From assembly GCF_038446525.1 (NCBI RefSeq), contig NZ_CP151792.1, positions 1,054,001 to 1,118,000 on the forward strand: 64,000 bases of DNA, given 5' to 3'. The position numbers and the translations under genes are program-made. Numbering within the stretch: position 1 is the first letter of the stretch; each line of letters opens with the position of its first letter. The stretch is from Methanolobus sp. ZRKC5 (GTDB lineage: Archaea > Halobacteriota > Methanosarcinia > Methanosarcinales > Methanosarcinaceae). Positions 964 to 25,120 of this stretch are shown one piece after another. The notes beneath the pieces are model-generated. The model saw only the letters and a list, made by a program, of their open reading frames with translations, made no database searches and was not told the DNA's origin.

Positions 964-3081
964 TCATGCAGAACATTGCATTGGAATAGTAAACTCAAAT
1001 GTACTCCCTTTACCAATTTCACTCTCCAACCGGATATTGCCTCCCTGGACCTCAACAAATTCTTTTACAAGCGCAAGCCCAAGGCCTGCACCTCCGTTTT
1101 TACGATTCAGAACCGGTTCCAGCTGCACAAAAGGTTTAAAAAGCAGTACCTGATCCTCTTCCGATATCCCAATTCCCGTATCTTTGACGCTAATATGGAG
1201 ACTTTGGTTTGTATGCTGCATAGCATCTACAGTTACTGCCCCACCATTTTGAGTGAATTTTATAGCATTGCTTATTAGGTTGAGTAATATAATCTTAAGC
1301 TTGGATCGGTCAGCATTTACATTATCAATATTAAAGTCAACCTTGAATTTGAGGTATATGTTCTTTTTTGCAGCCATTGAACCTGTGATCTTTTGAATTT
1401 CTGAGATGAGAGATAATAATGAGAACTCGGTAATATCAAGTTCCATTTTACCCCCTTCTATTTCAGCAACATAATTCAGAGAGGTTAGTAATTCTAATAA
1501 TTTAGAACCTGCATCCAGTATTGTTTCAGCACATTTTGCCTGATTTGTATTAAGAGTACCATAATACCCCTCTAAAAGAACTTCGGAATATCCCATAACA
1601 TGAGTCAAGGGAGTACGCAATTCATGGTTCACTATTGATAGAAATTCGCTTTTTGTGTTCGATGCATTCTCAAGCAGCAGTTTTGCTTTTATAAGCATCT
1701 TTTCTATGTTCTTGACCTCTGTAAAATCACGTACAACACCTGCCATTTTTTCTGGTTTACCATCAGCTCCGTAAACCAGATGAGTATTTGCAGATAAATG
1801 TATCAAGTTTCCATTTTTATTTTTAAGCTGAATATCGTAGTTAGTCAAATGTCCTGAAACTTTCAGCGCATCAAGCACATTCTGCCGTTCTTGGGGAGTA
1901 CTATATAATGCACCTATTGAATTACCGATCAATTCCTCAGGTTCAAATCCTAGATGCGAGGTTATGGATGGACTAAGGGTTATTATAGTCCCATCAATCT
2001 TCGTTTCAAAGTAAATATCATGCATCTCTTCAAATATCCGCCTGTATTTACACTCACTTTCCTTAATTTTAGATTCTTTACGTTTATGTTCAAGTGTATT
2101 TGCAAATACCTCACCCATCAACTTGAGAATTTTCAGGTACCCTTCCGGCCATTTTTTGATACTTGAATATGCTAAACACAAATTACCCATGATTTTCCCA
2201 CGGTACGCCATTGGCACAACTAATAAGGAAACTGTATTCGTTTCTCTTAACACTGTTTTTTCAAGAATGGCTTCCGGAGGCAGGTCTTCAATATTATTTA
2301 TAAAAAATGGTTCTTCCTTGAACACATTTTTTATCCACCAGGAATGTGCACTTATAGATAAATTATCGAAATATTTAATGTCAGATTCAATGCCTTCCGC
2401 ACACCACTCATGAATTCCATTAACAGACATGTAATCACCAGAGAACATGAAAATCCCGACTTTTTCTACCCTTGTCATTTCACCTATTTTTCCCAGGGTT
2501 TCATTAATGGATTCATCTATTTTTTCAGGTTCCATACCTATAAAATTAGTGGATATCTCAGAAAGCAATTTTCCAAACATAAGTAGACTATTTAATTTAG
2601 CTTCAACCTTATTGCGTACAATTATACTTTCCACGTGTGCAATGATCGTCTCAAGTACAATCATGACATGTTCAGGAATTTCGCTAATGGAATGAGAACA
2701 AATACTCATTACAGCTATAACTTCATCATTTCGCTTTATCGGATAAAACAATATTACACACAGATTCTCAGAAGAACAACTCTCGCATACGCCTGAAGAT
2801 TTTATATCCGGGCCTTTGGTAACAGAGGGTTTGCCAGACATCACTGACTTCATAATAGGAGTTGGTTTTTTTATTTCATTCAGATATTTATTGAATTCTG
2901 GTGAAAAACCCTTAGATGCAACAAACTCAAGATAACCAGTATGTTCATAAATAAAATGGATTGCTCCTGAATCAACTGCATCAAATTCAAGCATATCATC
3001 AAGAAGCACGTTTAAGTTTTCATGAAGGCTGTTTGTGGAACTTAAGACCACATCATGTTGAATACGTAGAATATCGATCAT
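964..3081 (-). CDS. GAF-GAF-PAS sensor histidine kinase
   Basis: This 705-residue protein is a soluble sensor kinase; no membrane span is visible. Two GAF-like domains occupy about residues 15-155 and 180-335. The first carries a CESCSSENLC cysteine cluster that could hold a cofactor or sense redox. A PAS domain follows (about 343-460). The HisKA dimerisation domain has the H-box NHELRTPL with the phospho-accepting His near 486. The catalytic ATPase domain has the N-box LLNLISNAIKF near 600, the DTGIGI G1 box near 635 and GAGLGLAL G2. It probably autophosphorylates and passes phosphate to a separate response regulator; no receiver domain is fused and none is encoded beside it. Methanosarcinales have many such orphan kinases. 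The start ATG at 3079-3081 has only a weak ribosome-binding site. The ligand is unknown. Confidence 0.9.
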   Translation of the reverse strand: MIDILRIQHDVVLSSTNSLHENLNVLLDDMLEFDAVDSGAIHFIYEHTGYLEFVASKGFSPEFNKYLNEIKKPTPIMKSVMSGKPSVTKGPDIKSSGVCESCSSENLCVILFYPIKRNDEVIAVMSICSHSISEIPEHVMIVLETIIAHVESIIVRNKVEAKLNSLLMFGKLLSEISTNFIGMEPEKIDESINETLGKIGEMTRVEKVGIFMFSGDYMSVNGIHEWCAEGIESDIKYFDNLSISAHSWWIKNVFKEEPFFINNIEDLPPEAILEKTVLRETNTVSLLVVPMAYRGKIMGNLCLAYSSIKKWPEGYLKILKLMGEVFANTLEHKRKESKIKESECKYRRIFEEMHDIYFETKIDGTIITLSPSITSHLGFEPEELIGNSIGALYSTPQERQNVLDALKVSGHLTNYDIQLKNKNGNLIHLSANTHLVYGADGKPEKMAGVVRDFTEVKNIEKMLIKAKLLLENASNTKSEFLSIVNHELRTPLTHVMGYSEVLLEGYYGTLNTNQAKCAETILDAGSKLLELLTSLNYVAEIEGGKMELDITEFSLLSLISEIQKITGSMAAKKNIYLKFKVDFNIDNVNADRSKLKIILLNLISNAIKFTQNGGAVTVDAMQHTNQSLHISVKDTGIGISEEDQVLLFKPFVQLEPVLNRKNGGAGLGLALVKEFVEVQGGNIRLESEIGKGSTFEFTIPMQCSA

Positions 3082-3316
3082 TATTTCACAACTATTTTAT
3101 GAATGTAACTTGTATATATTGATTTCTATATATATATACCGAGTTTAAAGTGAAAACACCAACTGAGTCCCTGCTCCAAAAAAAAAAAAAAAAAAATGGA
3201 ACAATACTACAAAGTTCAATAGTATGATACTATTTTATACATTCTTTTGAAGTATCTTGTTAGTAAACCAACCTTAAGCTTCCTGAATACTACAAAGATG
3301 CCATGTAATCAATTGA

Positions 3317-3339
3317 GGCAGCTCTGTAGAAGAGCTGCC
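3317..3339 (-). terminator. hairpin 3' of the chemotaxis gene
   Basis: A perfect 9-bp stem, GGCAGCTCT and AGAGCTGCC, encloses five bases just downstream of the minus-strand chemotaxis gene. Outer CAATTGA/TCAATTG-like bases could lengthen it. There is no long U run, so it may protect the 3' end rather than terminate by itself. An uninterrupted run of 19 A lies nearby at 3178-3196. Confidence 0.45.
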
Positions 3340-3380
3340 ATATTTAACAATTGATCCTGCAATGAGAGAGTTTCACCGCA

Positions 3381-5852
3381 TCAAACTAATGCATTCTTTA
3401 AAAGCTCGGAAGGTTCTGACTTCATCTTTGAAGACACCGGGTTTTCCCTTTTGCCACTACCCTCACTACCTGACTCCATGAGTACATCTGCACCTGCAGT
3501 GTCCAGGCGGAATTTAGACACTACCAGCTGCATATTGGCTGCCACACCCGCAAGTTCCTGGGCAGAGTTTGAGAGCTCTTGCATAGAAGCGGTCTGTTCT
3601 TCTACAGAAGCAGAAGCTTCCTGCGCCTCTGCTGCAGATTGCTCAGAGATAGCAGATACTTCTTCAACAGAAGATGTGACCTCTTCAATTGAAGCGGACT
3701 GCTCTTCTGCAGCCGCGGCAATTTCCTGCACCATCTTGGCTATAGTATCTCCGCCTTCAACAACCTTTCCTATCGCAAGAACCGACTTCTCAAGAGAAAC
3801 TGCTCCTGTATCGACCTCATCTAAACCTTTCCCCATAGAGGAAACCGCATCCTGGGTTCCGGCCTGCATCTGATCGATCAGTTGTGCTATCTGCTTGGCT
3901 GCATTGCCGGAATCTTCTGCCAGTTTTCTCACTTCATCAGCCACTACGGCAAATCCACGACCATGCTCCCCTGCTCTTGCAGCCTCAATCGCTGCATTAA
4001 GGGCAAGCAGGTTGGTCTGATCGGCAATACTTGTGATAAGATTGACGATCTCACCGATCTGTTTAGATTTCTCATCGAGTTCATTGATGACATCTGAAGA
4101 CTCTCCAACTGCAGATTTTATACTTTCCATCATTAATTTGAGGTCCTGGGACATTTCGCCAAGACCCTGTATGAGGGTGTTGGCTTCGATAGCATTTTGT
4201 GCTGCATTCCCTGAGTTAGTAGCTACTTCCTGAACAGTGAGACTCATATCATCCATTGCTCTTGAGACCTCTACAGCTTTTCCGGACTGCGCCTGTGTAC
4301 CTTTTGATATCTCAGATATAGTGCCGGATATTTGTTCTGCAGTAGCTGTCAATTCCTCGCTGGCTGCAGACATTTCCTGAGCAGTGGAAGCGATATTTTC
4401 AGCATTCTCTGTCACAAGAGTGACGACCTCATTCAGTGATAACCTGCAATTCTCCACACCTTCAGTGAGTTGTACGAAATCTCCAACTCCATGAACACTG
4501 ACTTTCTTTGTCAGATCATTGGATGAAATGGAAGCAAGGACTTCGCATGAATCATTGATGATGCTCTGTAGTGTATCGCCAAAACCATCCAGTGTATCAC
4601 CTAATAGTTTGAAGTCACCTTTTGCATCTATTGTTCCTCTGGTGCTCAAATCTCCTTCTGCATAGGAGTTAATAACCCTTGCAGCTTCGTTCAAAGGAAC
4701 TACAACAGCCTCTAATACCTGATTAAAACCTCTGGGTATTGCTTCAAAGTCAATAGCTACGTTGGTATCTGCTCTTCTGTCAAGCTTACCTGCAAGAGTA
4801 TCTTTTGCAAGATCATCAAAGTCTTTAACGATACCTTCAATTGGTTTAGTAACAGATCGTGCTATGAGGAAAGCAATTCCAGCCATTGCAATGATTGCAA
4901 CTAAAGAAATAATTATCAATTGGTCCCTAAGGGCTACTGCATTTGCAATCATTTCATCATATGGAGTGACAAGGACGAATGCAAAATCTGCGGTTTCCAT
5001 AGGTTCGTAAGTCATACTTACTTCCTTGCCGGTTATAGGATCAATGATACCTATTCTGCCTCCTTTCCCATTTTTGATGTCAATTGTCATCTGATCCATA
5101 ACAGGATCATTGAAATCAGTAAGGGACATGGTGCCAATCCATTCTTTTTCTGTAGGACTTGAGATGAGCAGGCCAGAATTACTCACTATGAAAGCGTAGC
5201 CGGTATCTAAGAATTTGACTTGTGATACTTCTTCATCAATATAGTCCAGTGAAACATCTACGCCTGAAATTCCTATGAAATCTCCATTTTTGATAACCGG
5301 GGAAACATAGCTGACCATCATCTCTCCATCGTATAGGAAAGGTTCAAGAATAACATCCTGTTTCTGAGATTTTGGTAACTGATAATAGTCATCGGTCTCA
5401 TATCCCGCAAGCGGTGCAAGAGCAACAGAACTACCACTTCTGGACCAGTAGGGTATAAATCGTCCTGTGGTGTCATGTCCCTGTGTATTTGCAAACTCTG
5501 CATCCATTCCATCGAAGGCATTGTTCTCGTATGCAACATAGGTCCCCAATATCCCCTGGTTTTCTTCCAGCAAACTTTTGAGAATGGTATTTACTTCATT
5601 TCTGTTGTTTGAGTCATAGTTTTCCATAGTGTGTGCAAGGGTTTGCGCAAGCAACTGGTTTGACCGCATGTCGCTGTCATATTGGAACGAATAACTTTTA
5701 GCAACACTTTCGGCTTCTGAATAAGCCGCGTTGATTTGCTGCTCTGTCACCTTGTCAACTGTTATATAGGTACTTGTGGCCATCAGTATGGTCACACTTA
5801 GAACTATGTATAAGAGTAATCTGGTTTTAATATTAATTTTGTCAAAATTCAT
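3381..5852 (-). CDS. methyl-accepting chemotaxis protein, dCache type
   Basis: This is a membrane chemoreceptor of about 823 residues. TM1 is at about 9-27. An extracellular dCache ligand-binding domain spans about 35-300 and TM2 about 308-330. A HAMP domain follows, with a HAMP-like linker. The long cytoplasmic signalling hairpin carries the conserved tip [22 protein letters not shown] near residues 615-650, which binds CheA/CheW. Glu/Gln-rich methylation helices flank it. The C-terminus (SELLKNALV) is not a CheR-tethering pentapeptide. I prefer the ATG at 5850-5852, preceded by AGAGAGAG, over an in-frame TTG eight codons upstream. No che genes are nearby. It presumably steers archaellum-driven motility, which fits the ArlD/E-like protein at 20.2-23.1 kb. 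The ligand cannot be predicted. Confidence 0.93.
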
Positions 5853-6402
5853 AAGTCTCTCTCTTTTAGGTTTCAATCCCTCAGTATTTGTGCAACATTG
5901 TCACACTCCGGGTAAATAGACAATCATTGTATTTAAAACATAGTATATTTAGTAAGCTCTGAAAATAAGAGATATACTGCACTTATATTTTGCAAGTACC
6001 GGTTCTGTAAAAATCATATTTAAATCGACATCTTTCGAACAAATTCACCAAGTATCTTCAATGTTGTGCAATATATTTTGAATTATTGAGGATTTTATTT
6101 TTGTCTGAATATTGAGGATTTCTACGGAACCTAAATACCAGCATTCTAAAGTAGATATTAATTCAAGATGCCTTGAAAAAATCATTCCGTCTATTATCTA
6201 TTGCTGGACAAAAGTCGGATATATATATATAATTTTAATTATTTACCTGCTGTGACCAAAAAATAATAACAACAGATATAATTTATCCAGTTAAGAGCAC
6301 AAAATCTTGCCACCATATACTTGAATCACAGTTGCAAAAAACAAATTGGAGAATAATTAATAACACGAAAGATATTAAACATATTACTCTACTTTACCTT
6401 CC
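5853..6402. other. intergenic region between divergent genes
   Basis: About 550 AT-rich bases lie between the divergent chemotaxis and FmdE genes, so promoters for both should be here. TATA-like runs occur at 6222-6240. The 11-mer ATTGAGGATTT occurs twice, at 6085-6095 and 6111-6121. No open frame with a credible start is seen. Confidence 0.5.
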
Positions 6403-18328: not shown

Positions 18329-18340
18329 AAAAAAAGATTG

Positions 18341-19962
18341 GTAACTATTCAGCCTGACTGTTTTAATGATGCAAAAAACAATATACTATGGCTTCATTCT
18401 ATGTGTTAAAAAATATTCAGTAAAATATCATAAAAAACGTCTATCAATCTGAGGGGATTTGTATAGACCGCGAAGAAATACTTGCAGTTTATGAAGCTGG
18501 TCCAGAAGCAGTAGTAGAACTTGTAACTCGATTACTTGGGATAATTGAACATCAATCTCTCCAAATTGCACAACTTGAAGAGCGTGTCAGGCATTTGGAA
18601 GAAATGCTTGAAAAGAATAGTCGCAACAGTAGCAAACCACCTTCTACTGATTCTTATGCACGGAATAAACCAACCGTTAAAAGTCAAAGAAAAAAGACCA
18701 ATAAGCATGTAGGTGGTCAAAACGGTCATCCTGGTACTACATTAAGAATAAATGATGATCCGGATGAAGTTATTGTTCATCCTGTTAATCAATGCGTCAA
18801 TTGTGGGAGATCGTTAGCTTCTGTTCCCTCTAACTATGAAAGAAGACAGGTCTTTGACATTCCTCCTATAACTATCAATTGCATTGAACATCGTTGCGAG
18901 ATTAAAACATGTCCCAAATGTTCTCATGTAAACAAAGCTCTTTTTCCAGATGGTGTAACTCAGCCGACTCAATACGGTCATCGAGTTAAGTCATTTGCAG
19001 TTTATTTGCACACTTACCAATTACTTCCTTATCAGCGTGTTACCAAGTTGTTCTCTGATATTTTGGGATGCAAGATAAGTCCTGCTACTTTGGTGAACAC
19101 GGAACGTAGTTGTTTTGAGAAGCTTGGAGCTTTTGAAAATACAGTGAAACATCTCCTGAAAGAATCTCCTGTCATCAATCTGGATGAAACAGGAATGAGA
19201 ATAAATGCAGTTCGTAATTGGCTTCATGTGGCAGGTACAGACAAACTGACCTATTATTTTGCACATCGCAAAAGGGGCTCAGAAGCAATGGATGCTATGG
19301 GCATATTACCAGGTTACACTGGTGTTGCAACACATGATTTTTGGAAACCGTACAACAAATATGAATGTCAACATTCATTATGTAATGCACATTTATTACG
19401 AGAGTTAACTGGAGCTTCCGAAAACAGGGATCAACAGTGGCCAAAGATAATGAGTGATCTCTTGATATGCATTAAACATCATGTTGATAATGATCTTTTA
19501 GATACTGAGCTAATTCAAAGGTTCAGTGAGGATTATGATCACATAACTTGTTTAGGAGTGAATGAAAATCCTCCTGATCCGGAATCAAATGTGCGGTCTA
19601 AAAAACGAGGACGTAAGAAGCAGACCACGGTAAAGAATTTGCTGGATAGGTTTATTGGCCATAAAGAGGATATCTTACGATTTATGTACGACCAAAACGT
19701 TCCGTTTGATAACAATCAGGCTGAAAGAGATATCAGAATGACGAAAGTACAGCAGAAGATATCAGGTACTTTCCGCAGTGAACAGGGTGCAAAAAATTTC
19801 TGCCGTATAAGAGGATACGTGTCTACTGTTAATAAGAATTCTGAATCTGTTATCGATGCAATTAGTGCAATATTTTATGGCAATTCATTTGTTCCAAAGT
19901 TGCAGAATTGATCGTGGATGAAGAAATCAGCTTGGTGGAAGTGAGCTAGGCTGAATAGTTAC
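18341..19962 (+). mobile_element. IS66-family insertion sequence, ISBst12-like (copy 1)
   Basis: This 1622-bp element is bounded by GTAACTATTCAGCCT and its inverse. The 8-bp duplication AAAGATTG lies at 18333-18340 and again at 19963-19970; the last G of the right copy is also the first base of the MITE at 19970. It carries a single transposase gene without the accessory tnpA/tnpB of classical IS66, as in the ISBst12 subgroup. It differs from copy 2 at only about six bases seen by eye. Confidence 0.93.
18463..19911 (+). CDS. IS66-family transposase (copy 1)
   Basis: The conserved reading frame starts at an ATA codon (18463), five bases after GAGGGGA, and encodes 482 residues. The first canonical start is a TTG at 18595, which would give 438 residues and lose DREEILAVYEAGPEAVVELVTRLL, a segment typical of the family. 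After a leucine-rich helix comes NSSKPPSTD, then the zf-IS66 zinc finger (CVNC ... CPKC), then the DDE domain: first Asp in INLDETGM, second in GVATHDFWKPY followed by CNAHLLREL, and the Glu in FDNNQAERDIR. The motifs are intact. It should cut and paste this element, and perhaps the MITEs with the same ends. Confidence 0.92.
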   Translation: MDREEILAVYEAGPEAVVELVTRLLGIIEHQSLQIAQLEERVRHLEEMLEKNSRNSSKPPSTDSYARNKPTVKSQRKKTNKHVGGQNGHPGTTLRINDDPDEVIVHPVNQCVNCGRSLASVPSNYERRQVFDIPPITINCIEHRCEIKTCPKCSHVNKALFPDGVTQPTQYGHRVKSFAVYLHTYQLLPYQRVTKLFSDILGCKISPATLVNTERSCFEKLGAFENTVKHLLKESPVINLDETGMRINAVRNWLHVAGTDKLTYYFAHRKRGSEAMDAMGILPGYTGVATHDFWKPYNKYECQHSLCNAHLLRELTGASENRDQQWPKIMSDLLICIKHHVDNDLLDTELIQRFSEDYDHITCLGVNENPPDPESNVRSKKRGRKKQTTVKNLLDRFIGHKEDILRFMYDQNVPFDNNQAERDIRMTKVQQKISGTFRSEQGAKNFCRIRGYVSTVNKNSESVIDAISAIFYGNSFVPKLQN

Positions 19963-19969
19963 AAAGATT

Positions 19970-20163
19970 GTAACTATTCAGCCTGATAAAAACGCTATCA
20001 ATAACAATCTTGACAAAAAGTTGAAACGTAAATTTCATTAGGATCATTTATTTTGATTGTTGCTATTGATTGCTTTTTTGATTGTTAGATTGTTAGTGAG
20101 CAGACATCTCTATTTCGATGAAATCAGTACCAATAGGCAAATCGTGCCAGGCTGAATAGTTAC
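19970..20163 (+). mobile_element. 194-bp MITE (copy 3), abutting the IS66 copy
   Basis: It has the same ends as the other copies and is identical by eye to copy 4 (34661) in inverse orientation. Its original 8-bp duplication, AAAAGATT, survives to the right at 20164-20171; the left copy is now beyond the IS66 element, at 18332-18339. It ends nine bases from the stop codon of the ArlD/E-like gene. Confidence 0.92.
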
Positions 20164-20172
20164 AAAAGATTT

Positions 20173-23070
20173 TCATATTCCGTATATTTCAGATCCCTTT
20201 TTAACCTTCTCAATGTCTCGTTCGATGACAGAAAGCCTGTTCTTATCAACTTTCATACCTGCAAGGCTCTCGATGAACCAGATTGATTTAACATGATCAT
20301 CAGGTGTGAGCTTCCAGTCAGGTTTTTCCATATAGAAATCAATTCCATCGGCATAGTGGAGCAATTCCATTCTCACTTTTTCAGTTATCCATCCAAGCTC
20401 CTCATAGTATGAGAGTATGTCAGGAAGGTTATTGCGACCGACAAGTTCCATCAAAAACTCGAGCCACTCCATACAGAGTTTCATATTGCCTGAATTTTTG
20501 ATTATGTTAGAAAGGTGGACATTTTGCCCGAATCCCTTGTAACTCCTCGCGCCAAGTTTTTTCAATTCACTTTCCACATACTCTGTAGTAGAATTGATCT
20601 TTTCAAGCATTGCAGCATTCTTCTGCTCAGATTTCTGCCTGAACTCCTGGAACTCAGAAGAGATATTACCCATATTATCGATCAATGAAGATATCGACCT
20701 TGAAAATTCCATTGAAGTTGATTTTGCATCGTCACTCGATTTTTCCATGGAAGTTATACTTGAAGCAATTGTATCCAGCTTACCTGAAACTTCATCGATA
20801 CGGGAAAATTTTGATTCATTTTCCTGTAAGGATTCATGCAATTGAGCAAGAAGTGCAGTATAAGAATTCACAAGTCCGGAAATATCATCCTCCATCCGGG
20901 ACAGATCAGAACTAACAGACGAATTGCCAGATTCTATTGCAACAAGAGTTGATTCAAAATCACTAAGCTTCTGAGCAACTATTCCAATATTAGATTCAAG
21001 TTCACCGACTTTCCCATTGTCCTGAGACAGAATCTCTTCATTAGCTTTTACAAGAGAAGATAAGGTCATATCCATACCTGAAAATTTACTTGAAAAGGTT
21101 TCTACTTCAGCACGGATAGAGCTAACTTGTAAACCCATGTCCCCAATATTGTCTTTTAAAATGTTGATATCGTTTTCTATCTCACCATACCTCTCATCTG
21201 CAACCTTCATACCATTTGGTTCTACTGAAAAAACCTCTGGTTGCGATTCAATTCCAAAAGAAGGAACATTAGGCTCAATATGAGAAACTAATTTCTCAAT
21301 AGACAATACAGGTTCATCCTGATGCCTTACAATTTCATCTGCTATGACCATCTCAGGGTTACTATCCGGCAGTATCACCGAATCAGGAAAAACATCATTA
21401 CCTACATCATTATCCACACCACTGACTACGAAATCAACAACCGGTGTGAATTTTACAAGCTCAGAATCAACACCTAAAAACCCAGGATCATCAGCCGGAA
21501 CTGTGCCCAGAACATTATCAGAGGAAACAACTTCATCAATGGAATATTTATCATCCATTTCCATAATCGGATCATCTATGGGAGTTATTTTCCTGATATT
21601 CTCAACTGGTGCACGCCCCACTTCAACCTCAAAAGGATTTACCTGCGCATTATCCGTTGCTTTCTTTAAAGGTTCTGCAGGCGAAGAAAAGGAAGTAGCA
21701 GGAGAGGAAATGAAAGGATTGACGGAACTAACTGATTCATTTTCAAATGGTGACTGAGGTGAGGATGGATCATCAGGACCATTATAATAAGACTCATCTG
21801 ATGTTGTATCTCCCTTCATATCCTCCATTCTTTCAATAAGACTCTTCCCTTTTGTCAGGTTTTTAATAAACCCTCTGGCAACTACAGATATTTCTTCAAT
21901 GTTTTTCTTAAATGCAGCTACATTAACAGGGGACTTAGTTGATCCCTTCATGCCAGAATTATCATTTGGAGAAAATTGTTCATTACTGTGTAAATGTTCG
22001 CCAAATGGATTGGCCCCTATAATGGGACTGCCACCAAATGGGCTGGCTTCAACAATAGAAGTAGGTTCAAATGGATTTACACTAGCTACATGACCACCAT
22101 CGAATGGATTGGAAACGGCTGCAGGGCTACCACCAAAAGGAGGAGATTCAGCAACAGGACTAGGGTCGAATGGATTGGAAACAACTGAAGGACTACCACC
22201 TAAAGGAGGAGAGTCAGTAGCCGGAGTAGGTTCAAATGGGTTGGAAACAGCGGCAGGACTACCACCAAAAGGAGGAGAGTTAACAACCGGAGTAGGTTCA
22301 AATGGGTTGGAAACAGCAGTAGGACTACCAGCAAAAGGAGGAGAGTTAACAACCGGAGTAGGATCGAATGGATTGGAAGCAACTGCAGGATTGGCACCAT
22401 TAGCAAGAGCAGTAGCAAATTGATCAGGAACAGCCAAATTTCCATCGGATGGTACTAATGAGGGAAAAGAAGGAGGAGCATTTTGTTCAGACTCCTGTAA
22501 ATTTGGCACCGATGTCTCAAGACCCTCTAAATGCTCTGTGCTGGTATTTTCAGGAGTGAATAGCTCAAATAGTGGAGGAGGAGAGCGCTTGTTATCAAAA
22601 TCACGTGAATTAGCAGCAGTAGCCACAGAATGATCTGTATTCATGCCGGAAAGCTCAGGATTAAACAACGATTTAGAAATATCAGAAGCAATATTTTCTT
22701 TTTCATCTGATATGCCAGAAATGTTGGGAGTGTTCATGAATGGAGGTAAAGCAGATGGTAAAGAAATATTTTCTAAATTTAATTTTGTACCCTCACTCTT
22801 AATTTGGCCCAAAGCAGATAAATCGGGTAAATCTCCAAATGGAGTACTTGCCTCTGGAATCAAACCTGCCCCTACATCAGAAATGGGCTCATGAACCTCG
22901 ATTTTTGCCTCTTCCATTGGAATATCAGCAAAAGCACTTGCTAATATATCAGGAATTTGTGGAGTTGAGCTCTTTTTTTTCTCAGAAACATCTGGTGACA
23001 TCTCTACCTCATCAACTACAGATGACATAATCTCTGCTATTTTTTTATTCTCCCAGGGAAGTTCACTCAT
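20173..23070 (-). CDS. large ArlD/E (FlaD/E)-like archaellum accessory protein with NPF/Pro-rich repeats
   Basis: This protein of 965 residues has no signal peptide or membrane span. The N-terminal 220 residues are acidic and low in complexity. About residues 225-360 hold a proline-rich repeat of 20-22 residues (NPFxPTPVVxSPPFGGSPxAVS), and at least nine NPF tripeptides occur up to about residue 490. A coiled coil follows (about 625-845, heptad-like, starting ERYGEIENDINILKDNI). The last 120 residues form an Arch_fla_DE-type domain: KLCMEWLEFLMELVGRNNLPDILSYYEELGWITEKVRMELLHYADGI. ArlC/D/E proteins form the ring that links the archaellum motor to chemotaxis through CheF. Usual ArlD/E proteins are about 150-400 residues, so this one is exceptionally long. 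No arl operon is present. I prefer the ATG at 23068-23070 over a TTG three codons upstream. Confidence 0.8.
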   Translation of the reverse strand: MSELPWENKKIAEIMSSVVDEVEMSPDVSEKKKSSTPQIPDILASAFADIPMEEAKIEVHEPISDVGAGLIPEASTPFGDLPDLSALGQIKSEGTKLNLENISLPSALPPFMNTPNISGISDEKENIASDISKSLFNPELSGMNTDHSVATAANSRDFDNKRSPPPLFELFTPENTSTEHLEGLETSVPNLQESEQNAPPSFPSLVPSDGNLAVPDQFATALANGANPAVASNPFDPTPVVNSPPFAGSPTAVSNPFEPTPVVNSPPFGGSPAAVSNPFEPTPATDSPPLGGSPSVVSNPFDPSPVAESPPFGGSPAAVSNPFDGGHVASVNPFEPTSIVEASPFGGSPIIGANPFGEHLHSNEQFSPNDNSGMKGSTKSPVNVAAFKKNIEEISVVARGFIKNLTKGKSLIERMEDMKGDTTSDESYYNGPDDPSSPQSPFENESVSSVNPFISSPATSFSSPAEPLKKATDNAQVNPFEVEVGRAPVENIRKITPIDDPIMEMDDKYSIDEVVSSDNVLGTVPADDPGFLGVDSELVKFTPVVDFVVSGVDNDVGNDVFPDSVILPDSNPEMVIADEIVRHQDEPVLSIEKLVSHIEPNVPSFGIESQPEVFSVEPNGMKVADERYGEIENDINILKDNIGDMGLQVSSIRAEVETFSSKFSGMDMTLSSLVKANEEILSQDNGKVGELESNIGIVAQKLSDFESTLVAIESGNSSVSSDLSRMEDDISGLVNSYTALLAQLHESLQENESKFSRIDEVSGKLDTIASSITSMEKSSDDAKSTSMEFSRSISSLIDNMGNISSEFQEFRQKSEQKNAAMLEKINSTTEYVESELKKLGARSYKGFGQNVHLSNIIKNSGNMKLCMEWLEFLMELVGRNNLPDILSYYEELGWITEKVRMELLHYADGIDFYMEKPDWKLTPDDHVKSIWFIESLAGMKVDKNRLSVIERDIEKVKKGSEIYGI
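22005..22395 (-). repeat. in-gene tandem repeat, about 60-66 bp unit
   Basis: About six units of 60-66 bases encode the NPF-x-PTP...SPPFGGSP repeat of the ArlD/E-like protein. Unit-to-unit similarity is high at DNA level (GGTTCAAATGGGTTGGAAACAG and AAAGGAGGAGAG recur on the plus strand), suggesting expansion by slippage or recombination. Opposite-strand open frames here are by-products of the repeat. Confidence 0.85.
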
Positions 23071-23373
23071 ATAAACCAACTATTGATCAAAAAGTATTAT
23101 TATAATCTCACGAATATTATATGCGCGATATTTATATAAAAGTTGCTCTTGACAGAAATAATATTATTAAAATGTAACTCTTTGATCCAATAACAAAAGA
23201 GTCTCAAAAAGAGTTTAGGCGAACGGGAATGATTGAGGGAATGGACGAGAGATGAAGAATGAAATTTGTGCTTAATTTAATTTGCTTTGAGTTTGTACGC
23301 CTTAAATGTGCATTGTTGATAATTATATATAAACAGTTTGTATTATTTCAAGCAGAATAATATATATTAAAAT
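23071..23373 (-). promoter_or_regulatory. upstream region of the ArlD/E-like gene with TATA-like element
   Basis: On the minus strand TTTATATAAA (23131-23140) lies about 60 bases before the start codon and is a plausible promoter. An inverted repeat CTCTT/AAGAG occurs near 23179-23203. The rest, up to the IS66 copy 2 at 23374, shows no gene. Confidence 0.45.
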
Positions 23374-24995
23374 GTAACTATTCAGCCTAACTGTTTTAAT
23401 GATGCAAAAAACAATATACTATGGCTTCATTCTATGTGTTAAAAAATATTCAGTAAAATATCATAAAAAACGTCTATCAATCTGAGGGGATTTGTATAGA
23501 CCGCGAAGAAATACTTGCAGTTTATGAAGCTGGTCCAGAAGCAGTAGTAGAACTTGTAACTCGATTACTTGGGATAATTGAACATCAATCTCTCCAAATT
23601 GCACAACTTGAAGAGCGTGTCAGGCATTTGGAAGAAATGCTTGAAAAGAATAGTCGCAACAGTAGCAAACCACCTTCTACTGATTCTTATGCACGGAATA
23701 AACCAACCCTTAAAAGTCAAAGAAAAAAGACCAATAAGCATGTAGGTGGTCAAAACGGTCATCCTGGTACTACATTAAGAATAAATGATGATCCGGATGA
23801 AGTTATTGTTCATCCTGTTAATCAATGCGTCAATTGTGGGAGATCGTTAGCTTCTGTTCCCTCTAACTATGAAAGAAGACAGGTCTTTGACATTCCTCCT
23901 ATAACTATCAATTGCATTGAACATCGTTGCGAGATTAAAACATGTCCCAAATGTTCTCATGTAAACAAAGCTCTTTTTCCAGATGGTGTAACTCAGCCGA
24001 CTCAATACGGTCATCGAGTTAAGTCATTTGCAGTTTATTTGCACACTTACCAATTACTTCCTTATCAGCGTGTTACCAAGTTGTTCTCTGATATTTTGGG
24101 ATGCAAGATAAGTCCTGCTACTTTGGTGAACACGGAACGTAGTTGTTTTGAGAAGCTTGGAGCTTTTGAAAATACAGTGAAACATCTCCTGAAAGAATCT
24201 CCTGTCATCAATCTGGATGAAACAGGAATGAGAATAAATGCAGTTCGTAATTGGCTTCATGTGGCAGGTACAGACAAACTGACCTATTATTTTGCACATC
24301 GCAAAAGGGGCTCAGAAGCAATGGATGCTATGGGCATATTACCAGGTTACACTGGTGTTGCAACACATGATTTTTGGAAACCGTACAACAAATATGAATG
24401 TCAACATTCATTATGTAATGCACATTTATTACGAGAGTTAACTGGAGCTTCCGAAAACAGTGATCAACAGTGGCCAAAGATAATGAGTGATCTCTTGATA
24501 TGCATTAAACATCATGTTGATAATGATCTTTTAGATACTGAGCTAATTCAAAGGTTCAGTGAGGATTATGATCACATAACTTGTTTAGGAGTGAATGAAA
24601 ATCCTCCTGATCCGGAATCAAATGTGCGGTCTAAAAAACGAGGACGTAAGAAGCAGACCACGGTAAAGAATTTGCTGGATAGGTTTATTGGCCATAAAGA
24701 GGATATCTTGCGATTTATGTACGACCAAAACGTTCCGTTTGATAACAATCAGGCTGAAAGAGATATCAGAATGACGAAAGTACAGCAGAAGATATCAGGT
24801 ACTTTCCGCAGTAAACAGGGTGCAAAAAATTTCTGCCGTATAAGAGGATACGTGTCTACTGTTAATAAGAATTCTGAATCTGTTATCGATGCAATTAGTG
24901 CAATATTTTATGGCAATTCATTTGTTCCAAAGTTGCAGAATTAATCGTGGATGAAGAAATCAGCTTGGTGGAAGTGAGCTAGGCTGAATAGTTAC
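23374..24995 (+). mobile_element. IS66-family insertion sequence, ISBst12-like (copy 2)
   Basis: This 1622-bp element is in the same orientation as copy 1 and nearly identical to it. Perfect 8-bp duplications, ATTAAAAT, flank it at 23366-23373 and 24996-25003. It sits about 300 bases upstream of the ArlD/E-like gene. Confidence 0.95.
23496..24944 (+). CDS. IS66-family transposase (copy 2)
   Basis: This is the same 482-residue frame as in copy 1, again with GAGGGGA before an ATA codon (23496) and a first canonical start only at TTG 23628. It differs from copy 1 at three residues seen by eye: Leu for Val in NKPTxKSQ, Ser for Arg in ASENxDQQW, and Lys for Glu in TFRSxQGAK. The stop is TAA rather than TGA. 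The zinc finger and DDE residues are intact. Confidence 0.92.
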   Translation: MDREEILAVYEAGPEAVVELVTRLLGIIEHQSLQIAQLEERVRHLEEMLEKNSRNSSKPPSTDSYARNKPTLKSQRKKTNKHVGGQNGHPGTTLRINDDPDEVIVHPVNQCVNCGRSLASVPSNYERRQVFDIPPITINCIEHRCEIKTCPKCSHVNKALFPDGVTQPTQYGHRVKSFAVYLHTYQLLPYQRVTKLFSDILGCKISPATLVNTERSCFEKLGAFENTVKHLLKESPVINLDETGMRINAVRNWLHVAGTDKLTYYFAHRKRGSEAMDAMGILPGYTGVATHDFWKPYNKYECQHSLCNAHLLRELTGASENSDQQWPKIMSDLLICIKHHVDNDLLDTELIQRFSEDYDHITCLGVNENPPDPESNVRSKKRGRKKQTTVKNLLDRFIGHKEDILRFMYDQNVPFDNNQAERDIRMTKVQQKISGTFRSKQGAKNFCRIRGYVSTVNKNSESVIDAISAIFYGNSFVPKLQN

Positions 24996-25120
24996 ATTAA
25001 AATTACAATGAAACCGATAGCATCTACCATAACATAGAAATGAAATATAATAAAAAAATATAAACTTTTAAATGTATAACTATGCAAATTAATAGCATAC
25101 AAATAAAGGTCAAACCCGTG

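Follow-up and report, generated by a model that had tools for sequence, protein, structure and literature searches.

The window analysed here is the 64,000-nucleotide stretch of the Methanolobus sp. ZRKC5 genome at G000:C1:1054001-1118000. Its minus strand carries a single-frame ORF at positions 20173–23070 (stop codon 20173–20175) that encodes 965 aa from an ATG, and comparison with relatives marks it as a giant paralogue of the archaellum protein ArlCE (hereafter, the giant). The ATG matches the MSELPW/MTEFPW beginning shared by the relatives in an N-terminal alignment. Because the relatives begin at this same point, a TTG upstream of the ATG at 23079 is probably not the start. A TATA-like box (TTTTATATAAA, read from the sequence on the minus strand, 23131–23141) lies ∼60 nt upstream of the ATG, and with this predicted element the gene probably has its own promoter.

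Mobile elements, which we place outside the system, lie on both sides of the gene. Two plus-strand copies of an IS66-family element are found at 18341–19962, with the target duplication AAAGATTG at 18333–18340 and 19963–19970, and at 23374–24995, with the target duplication ATTAAAAT at 23366–23373 and 24996–25003. The duplications are 8 bp long, and each copy has its own, different pair. A 194-bp MITE-like element with the same ends as IS66 occupies 19970–20163 and stops ∼10 bp before the stop codon of the giant. The IS66 element is 1622 bp in length and is present genome-wide in 34 full or near-full copies at 98–100% identity, which indicates a recent burst. A composite transposon carrying the giant was considered and rejected, since the target duplications differ, the genome holds 34 copies, and relatives have no IS66 at this site.

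An earlier note, made from the sequence alone, had assigned the C-terminus to the ArlD/E domain, and a Pfam profile search bore this out. PF04659 (Arch_fla_DE) matched residues 849–938 (20257–20526, minus strand) with 94.5 bits and an E-value of 3.9e-27, well above the curated cut-off of 21, and the conserved block runs on to the C-terminus at residue 965. A whole-genome profile search detected exactly two DE proteins in the source genome, the ArlCE of the arl operon and the giant. An NCBIfam search of the giant returned just generic coiled-coil matches far under their cut-offs, and no transmembrane-like hydrophobic stretch was detected (maximum Kyte-Doolittle 19-residue mean 1.23). A fold search of the C-terminal model against the PDB gave no match (best E 1.1, TM 0.09). 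Among solved structures, the C-terminal 140 residues matched only pentatricopeptide-repeat proteins, which were not credible as relatives (E 0.009). A literature search found no paper describing the giant, with the proviso that the supplement of Makarova et al. 2016 (PMC4858521) may already list it among divergent FlaC/D/E components.

The acidic region, the NPF/SPPFGGSP repeats, and the long coiled coil that the same note had described ahead of the DE domain were all seen in the composition, the repeat analysis, and the structure models. The N-terminus ahead of the repeats is rich in Pro and Ser and is acidic. It opens with the motif MSELPWENKK (residues 1–10; 23041–23070, minus strand), identified by alignment; most giants have its [LF]PW[ED] part close to their own N-terminus. 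A segment at residues 39–57 (IPDILASAFADIPMEEAKI; 22900–22956, minus strand) is conserved within Methanolobus and can still be made out in several further genera. The sequence TPFGDLPDLSA (residues 76–86; 22813–22845, minus strand) contains a short motif in common with GSIPDLSA of ArlCE and was the top match of an ArlCE N-terminal profile across the entire giant, a result that is suggestive only (P 0.01). The top three matches of the ArlCE N-terminal profile to the whole giant profile, with residue numbers shifted by 3 to fit the ATG start, fell on PDLS (76–86), on a predicted helix (391–410), and on SPF (435–459), all weak at P 0.01–0.14; the helix likewise resembles the ArlCE N-terminus only weakly (P about 0.02–0.03). 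These matches hint that the giant may comprise an entire ArlCE-like protein preceded by an extra N-terminal arm.

Self-comparison identified repeats of 22 aa (66 nt) containing NPF and SPPFGGSP at 22034–22429 on the minus strand, with a register of five 132-nt windows at 66-nt spacing; these repeats are Methanolobus-specific. Residues 200–500 contain nine NPF tripeptides against 0.25 expected, and the maximum in 5,000 residue shuffles was 4. Most lie inside the repeats, with two further copies at residues 451 and 478. Full-length Methanolobus giants have 3–11 NPF each and those of other genera examined 0–1. An excess of the broader motif [SND]PF is found in Methanolobus, g11, g2, and g14; it is weak elsewhere and absent in some genera. 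The linkers of ArlCE also bear SPF or DPF. Given the confinement of multiple NPF to Methanolobus and this broader pattern, NPF itself is not the conserved feature.

Downstream of the repeats, AlphaFold2 predicts a helix at residues 384–420 (21811–21921, minus strand) that contains a conserved LT-GKSLIERME block. The helix carries net positive charge in 27/29 relatives and is amphipathic beyond shuffles, at the nominal 5% level, in 16 of the 29 sequences. The block around residues 400–417 and the coil-DE part are common to nearly all giants. Residues 500–625 (21196–21573, minus strand) form an acidic segment with 22% D+E and 4% K+R that is disordered as judged by composition and model.

Single-chain AlphaFold2 models were made of the full-length giant alongside 15 other sequences (14 orthologues and one ArlCE). 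In the full-length model pLDDT was <50 across almost all of residues 1–382 and 421–622, and the remainder consisted of an isolated helical island at 384–420, long helices at 622–680 and 688–839, and a helical C-terminus. Models and sequence together place two long helices or a coiled coil at residues 622–839 (20554–21207, minus strand). A model of the last 340 residues agreed with the full-length one (mean pLDDT 74); its pTM was only 0.32, and thus the arrangement of the C-terminal parts is not reliable. A putative FlaC-like segment at about residues 694–737 (20860–20991, minus strand) was positioned from weak matches in orthologues and their distance to the DE domain. Many giants weakly match positions 1–44 of FlaC_arch (PF05377, cut-off 27.8), starting ∼155 residues before the DE domain, where ArlCE matches strongly. 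Several orthologues scored 28–36 bits against this profile and others 21–27; no match was reported for the giant of the source genome.

The earlier note had proposed a survey for the same architecture, and the same N-to-C order of parts in one frame was indeed found in Methanolobus, Methanococcoides, Methanosalsum, and further genera of the Methanosarcinaceae. The relatives range from about 430 to 1057 aa. In their alignment the DE part has 79–89% consensus, whereas the disordered part has 12–50%. The giants form one clade in DE-domain trees (support 100/99 and 100/100), beside the ArlCE proteins of the Methanosarcinales and inside the region that these occupy. The trees show that the giant and the ArlC-ArlE fusion encoded in the operon are paralogues; judged by them, the giant is not orthologous to haloarchaeal ArlD and falls outside ArlD sensu stricto. 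The haloarchaeal DE proteins form a separate group (99/93), a placement limited by long branches. Approximately unbiased (AU) p values of 0.44 and 0.32 favour neither a duplication within the family nor one before it. Second DE proteins are present in many genomes of other Methanosarcinales families, none of them near the ArlCE loci fetched.

Profile matches were counted by hand in 112 Methanosarcinaceae genomes, which share ancestry, so that the counts are not independent: ArlCE was found in 58, the giant in 55, and both in 54. A 150-aa fragment in a genome with no ArlCE (G036) and a divergent weak match (G108) were left out of the giant counts. ArlCE was found without a detected giant in four genomes (G003, G052, G053, and G111), some of them fragmented assemblies. 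One exception to the pairing runs the other way: G037, a 99% complete genome, encodes a 478-aa giant (L072, G037:C9) and has no detected ArlCE. In G073 there are two giants and two ArlCE copies. Four genomes (G022, G031, G034, and G038) have neither ArlCE nor giant and yet keep DUF7287; the absences in G031, G034, and G038, which have their genus in common, may represent one loss. Both of the giant-less, ArlCE-less genomes examined, G022 and G034, hold decayed remnants of the giant. In G022, which belongs to g7, the genus group of Methanococcoides, only residues 1–45 and about 660–706 remain, with a deletion between them, and the site lies between atpD and DUF7287 with the pilin-like row intact. 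In G034 a C-terminal fragment is found at L075:13955-14109. Such decay is stronger evidence for the link to the archaellum than the counts are. The giant is kept and lost together with ArlCE, occurring in 54/58 ArlCE genomes with four joint absences and the exception of G037, and most genera of the family with archaella possess it.

That the gene lies alone, as the earlier note stated, is correct for Methanolobus and g11 but often not for the other genera examined, nor is the arl operon remote. The arl operon (ArlCE, F, G, H, I, J; about G000:C1:1124487-1130840), whose ArlCE is an ArlC-ArlE fusion, begins just past the window end and ∼55 kb from the giant. The giant lies outside the operon, and near a copy of ArlCE only in Methanosalsum and g12: ∼2.3 kb separates the two genes, which share a strand, in Methanosalsum (L056) and in G073 (L066). 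In Methanococcoides the giant is situated between atpD and the pilin-like row DUF7287-7288-7261-7266-7289. There and in several other genera it is directly upstream of this operon on the same strand, with a gap of 35 bp in L057. The setting is similar in L061–L065, L067, and L069, and variations include an inserted gene, an inverted operon (L071), and no adjoining operon (L058, L070, and L072). In Methanolobus and g11 the giant instead lies between thiI and a GPDPase_memb-type gene, away from the pilin-like operon. Elsewhere a GPDPase_memb-type gene comes after the pilin-like row, and for this reason Methanolobus appears to retain the old locus minus the pilin row; the solitary place in Methanolobus and g11 is probably derived. 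The source genome has two tandem copies of the row, DUF7287-7288-7261-7266-7289-7289/7308, at 1.87 Mb (L073:3883-13400).

The earlier note had also proposed a polar scaffold that joins chemosensory arrays to the motor or to another structure of the cell pole, and the chemotaxis genes bear on this proposal. CheW-domain genes and MCPs are present in the source genome, and CheW-domain genes occur across Methanolobus. Two large minus-strand ORFs lie at 964–5876 of the window, the second of which (3381–5876) encodes an MCP with dCache and HAMP domains. A profile search of the source genome gave no match to CheF, and BLAST against the che loci of G017 and G033 revealed no CheF-like gene in the four CheW/MCP regions examined, a search that a very divergent CheF would escape. 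Methanolobus has CheW-domain proteins, MCPs, and arl genes, but no clear CheF. Among the 54 genomes with giant and ArlCE, a clear CheF match was found in two (G017 and G033), and a few others gave partial matches of 19–28 bits. In 12 genomes with giant and ArlCE (G002, G016, G018, G020, G023, G024, G026, G032, G035, G105, G107, and G109), three of them <80% complete, there was no CheW match. The giant therefore cannot depend on chemosensory arrays in general. Near the arl operon, two response-regulator genes and a gene for a GvpD/KaiC-like ATPase are found at L034:14017-16956; between them and arlCE lies a 339-aa ORF of opposite orientation.

As the giant is kept or lost with the archaellum, this second, greatly enlarged copy of a switch protein is probably a working part of the motor. 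In Haloferax, ArlCE interacts with ArlD, and CheF and ArlH are binding partners of ArlCDE (PMC8978795). Deletion of FlaD abolishes motility, archaella are generally gone, and FlaD-GFP is polar (PMC6509185). On balance the rather probable explanation is that the Methanosarcinaceae archaellum has two D/E-domain subunits in its cytoplasmic ring (switch complex) and that the giant is the second of them, with an ArlD-like role and a long disordered arm. The ratio of roughly one giant per ArlCE copy speaks for such a subunit; the position of the gene beside a pilin-like operon in several genera, rather than in the arl operon, speaks against it, as do the unpaired genomes (G037, and the four with ArlCE alone) and the lack of orthology with haloarchaeal ArlD. 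By analogy with ArlD and ArlCE in Haloferax, the DE domain and FlaC-like coil would pair with ArlCE at the motor base. More tentatively, the flexible N-terminal half, with the helix at 384–420 and the [SND]PF, LPWE, and PDLS motifs, may extend from the ring as far as the membrane or other proteins of the pole, and the arm could thereby anchor or position the ring. The NPF repeats would then be a genus-level elaboration of the flexible part and not its core function.

A somewhat unlikely alternative, although one not mutually exclusive with a ring subunit, is that the giant is mainly structural, its DE domain holding motors in a polar cap or cone so that archaella are clustered and positioned without any part in switching. 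Its extreme length, mostly disordered chain, and coiled coil would suit such a role, as would the close tie of the polar cap, most likely proteinaceous, to the motor (PMC8978795). CheF went undetected in most of the genomes that carry a giant, and CheW gave no match in 12 of them, which fits a role needing no switching input. The DE domain and FlaC-like coil are, however, parts of ring proteins, and the near-equal copy number with ArlCE again suggests a subunit. As for the polar scaffold of the earlier note, the protein belongs with the archaellum, and a scaffold at the motor or pole is possible; a necessary link to arrays is not supported, given the 12 genomes without a CheW match.

It is also conceivable, but improbable, that in Methanosarcinaceae, where CheF is mostly undetectable, signals enter through the enlarged second switch protein, which would have acquired this task along with anchoring. 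The arm would tether the motor ring to membrane and pole and receive regulatory input directly, for example from the nearby response regulators or the GvpD/KaiC-like ATPase, by a route unlike that through CheY and CheF.

We think it quite improbable that the giant is part of the pilin-like system DUF7287-7288-7261-7266-7289, for instance as a cytoplasmic adaptor. Such a link is suggested by Methanococcoides and several further genera, in which the giant immediately precedes that operon on the same strand. Against this, genomes that lack ArlCE keep the operon and have lost the giant, as the remnants in G022 and G034 testify, and in Methanolobus and g11 the giant is apart from the operon, which the source genome holds elsewhere in two copies.

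Very little speaks for NPF motifs as docking sites on a scaffold between arrays and motor, as first envisaged, even though ArlCDE of Haloferax are the entry point of chemotaxis signals through CheF (PMC8978795) and the source genome has CheW-domain genes and MCPs. The genomes without a CheW match and the lack of a CheF match in the source genome speak against a necessary link to arrays, and the positions of array and archaellum are independent in Haloferax (PMC6509185). A role of the NPF motifs as EH-type ligands fares no better: no PF12763 match was found genome-wide at E ≤ 10, and multiple NPF are limited to Methanolobus.

Finally, an artefact in which IS activity or a faulty assembly fused a repeat gene with an arl gene, suggested by the two bracketing IS66 copies and by relatives split at contig ends (L039/L054 and L041/L055), can be dismissed for practical purposes, since full-length relatives without these IS copies have the parts in the same order and one frame, the sole frame break is in a MAG (L050), and the target duplications of the two IS copies differ.

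ArlCDE have been described as having no membrane tether (PMC12024892), which leaves the question of what keeps the cytoplasmic ring in place. The giant is a concrete candidate for this missing tether: it occurs across the family, its flexible arm is long, its predicted helix is conserved, and it is lost with the archaellum. The giant, and the apparent absence of CheF from most of these swimmers, also raise the question of how their motors are controlled.

Several known systems invite comparison. The giant resembles the NPF/EH-domain networks of eukaryotes in having multiple NPF tripeptides in a disordered chain, but the source genome has no EH domain and the repeats are not conserved outside Methanolobus. 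ArlX, the ring protein of Crenarchaeota, has likewise been proposed to act in the cytoplasmic ring (PMC8978795). ArlX has a transmembrane domain, however, and the giant has no such hydrophobic stretch. Separate enlargement of the DE family is seen in haloarchaeal proteins of 728–951 aa (L077, L078, and L079) with a long C-terminal extension; in these long proteins (family f22) the DE domain is mid-protein and the extension C-terminal, unlike in the giant. The ArlD (FlaD) of Haloferax and other haloarchaea is, like the giant, a second DE protein beside ArlCE in a two-DE system, but it belongs to the separate haloarchaeal DE group, and the short haloarchaeal DE proteins sampled are of 156–170 aa. 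A further counterpart is ArlCE itself, the FlaC-FlaE fusion (432 aa in the source genome, L034:11542-12840), which has the same C-terminal Arch_fla_DE domain after a coiled coil, falls in the same region of the tree, and has a Pro/Phe-rich N-terminal linker with [SD]PF and PDLS. The giant differs from it in being twice as long, in lying outside the arl operon in the source genome, in having a degenerate FlaC segment that lacks, where the two align, the NPF present in FlaC, and in bearing a disordered N-terminal extension of roughly 390 residues.
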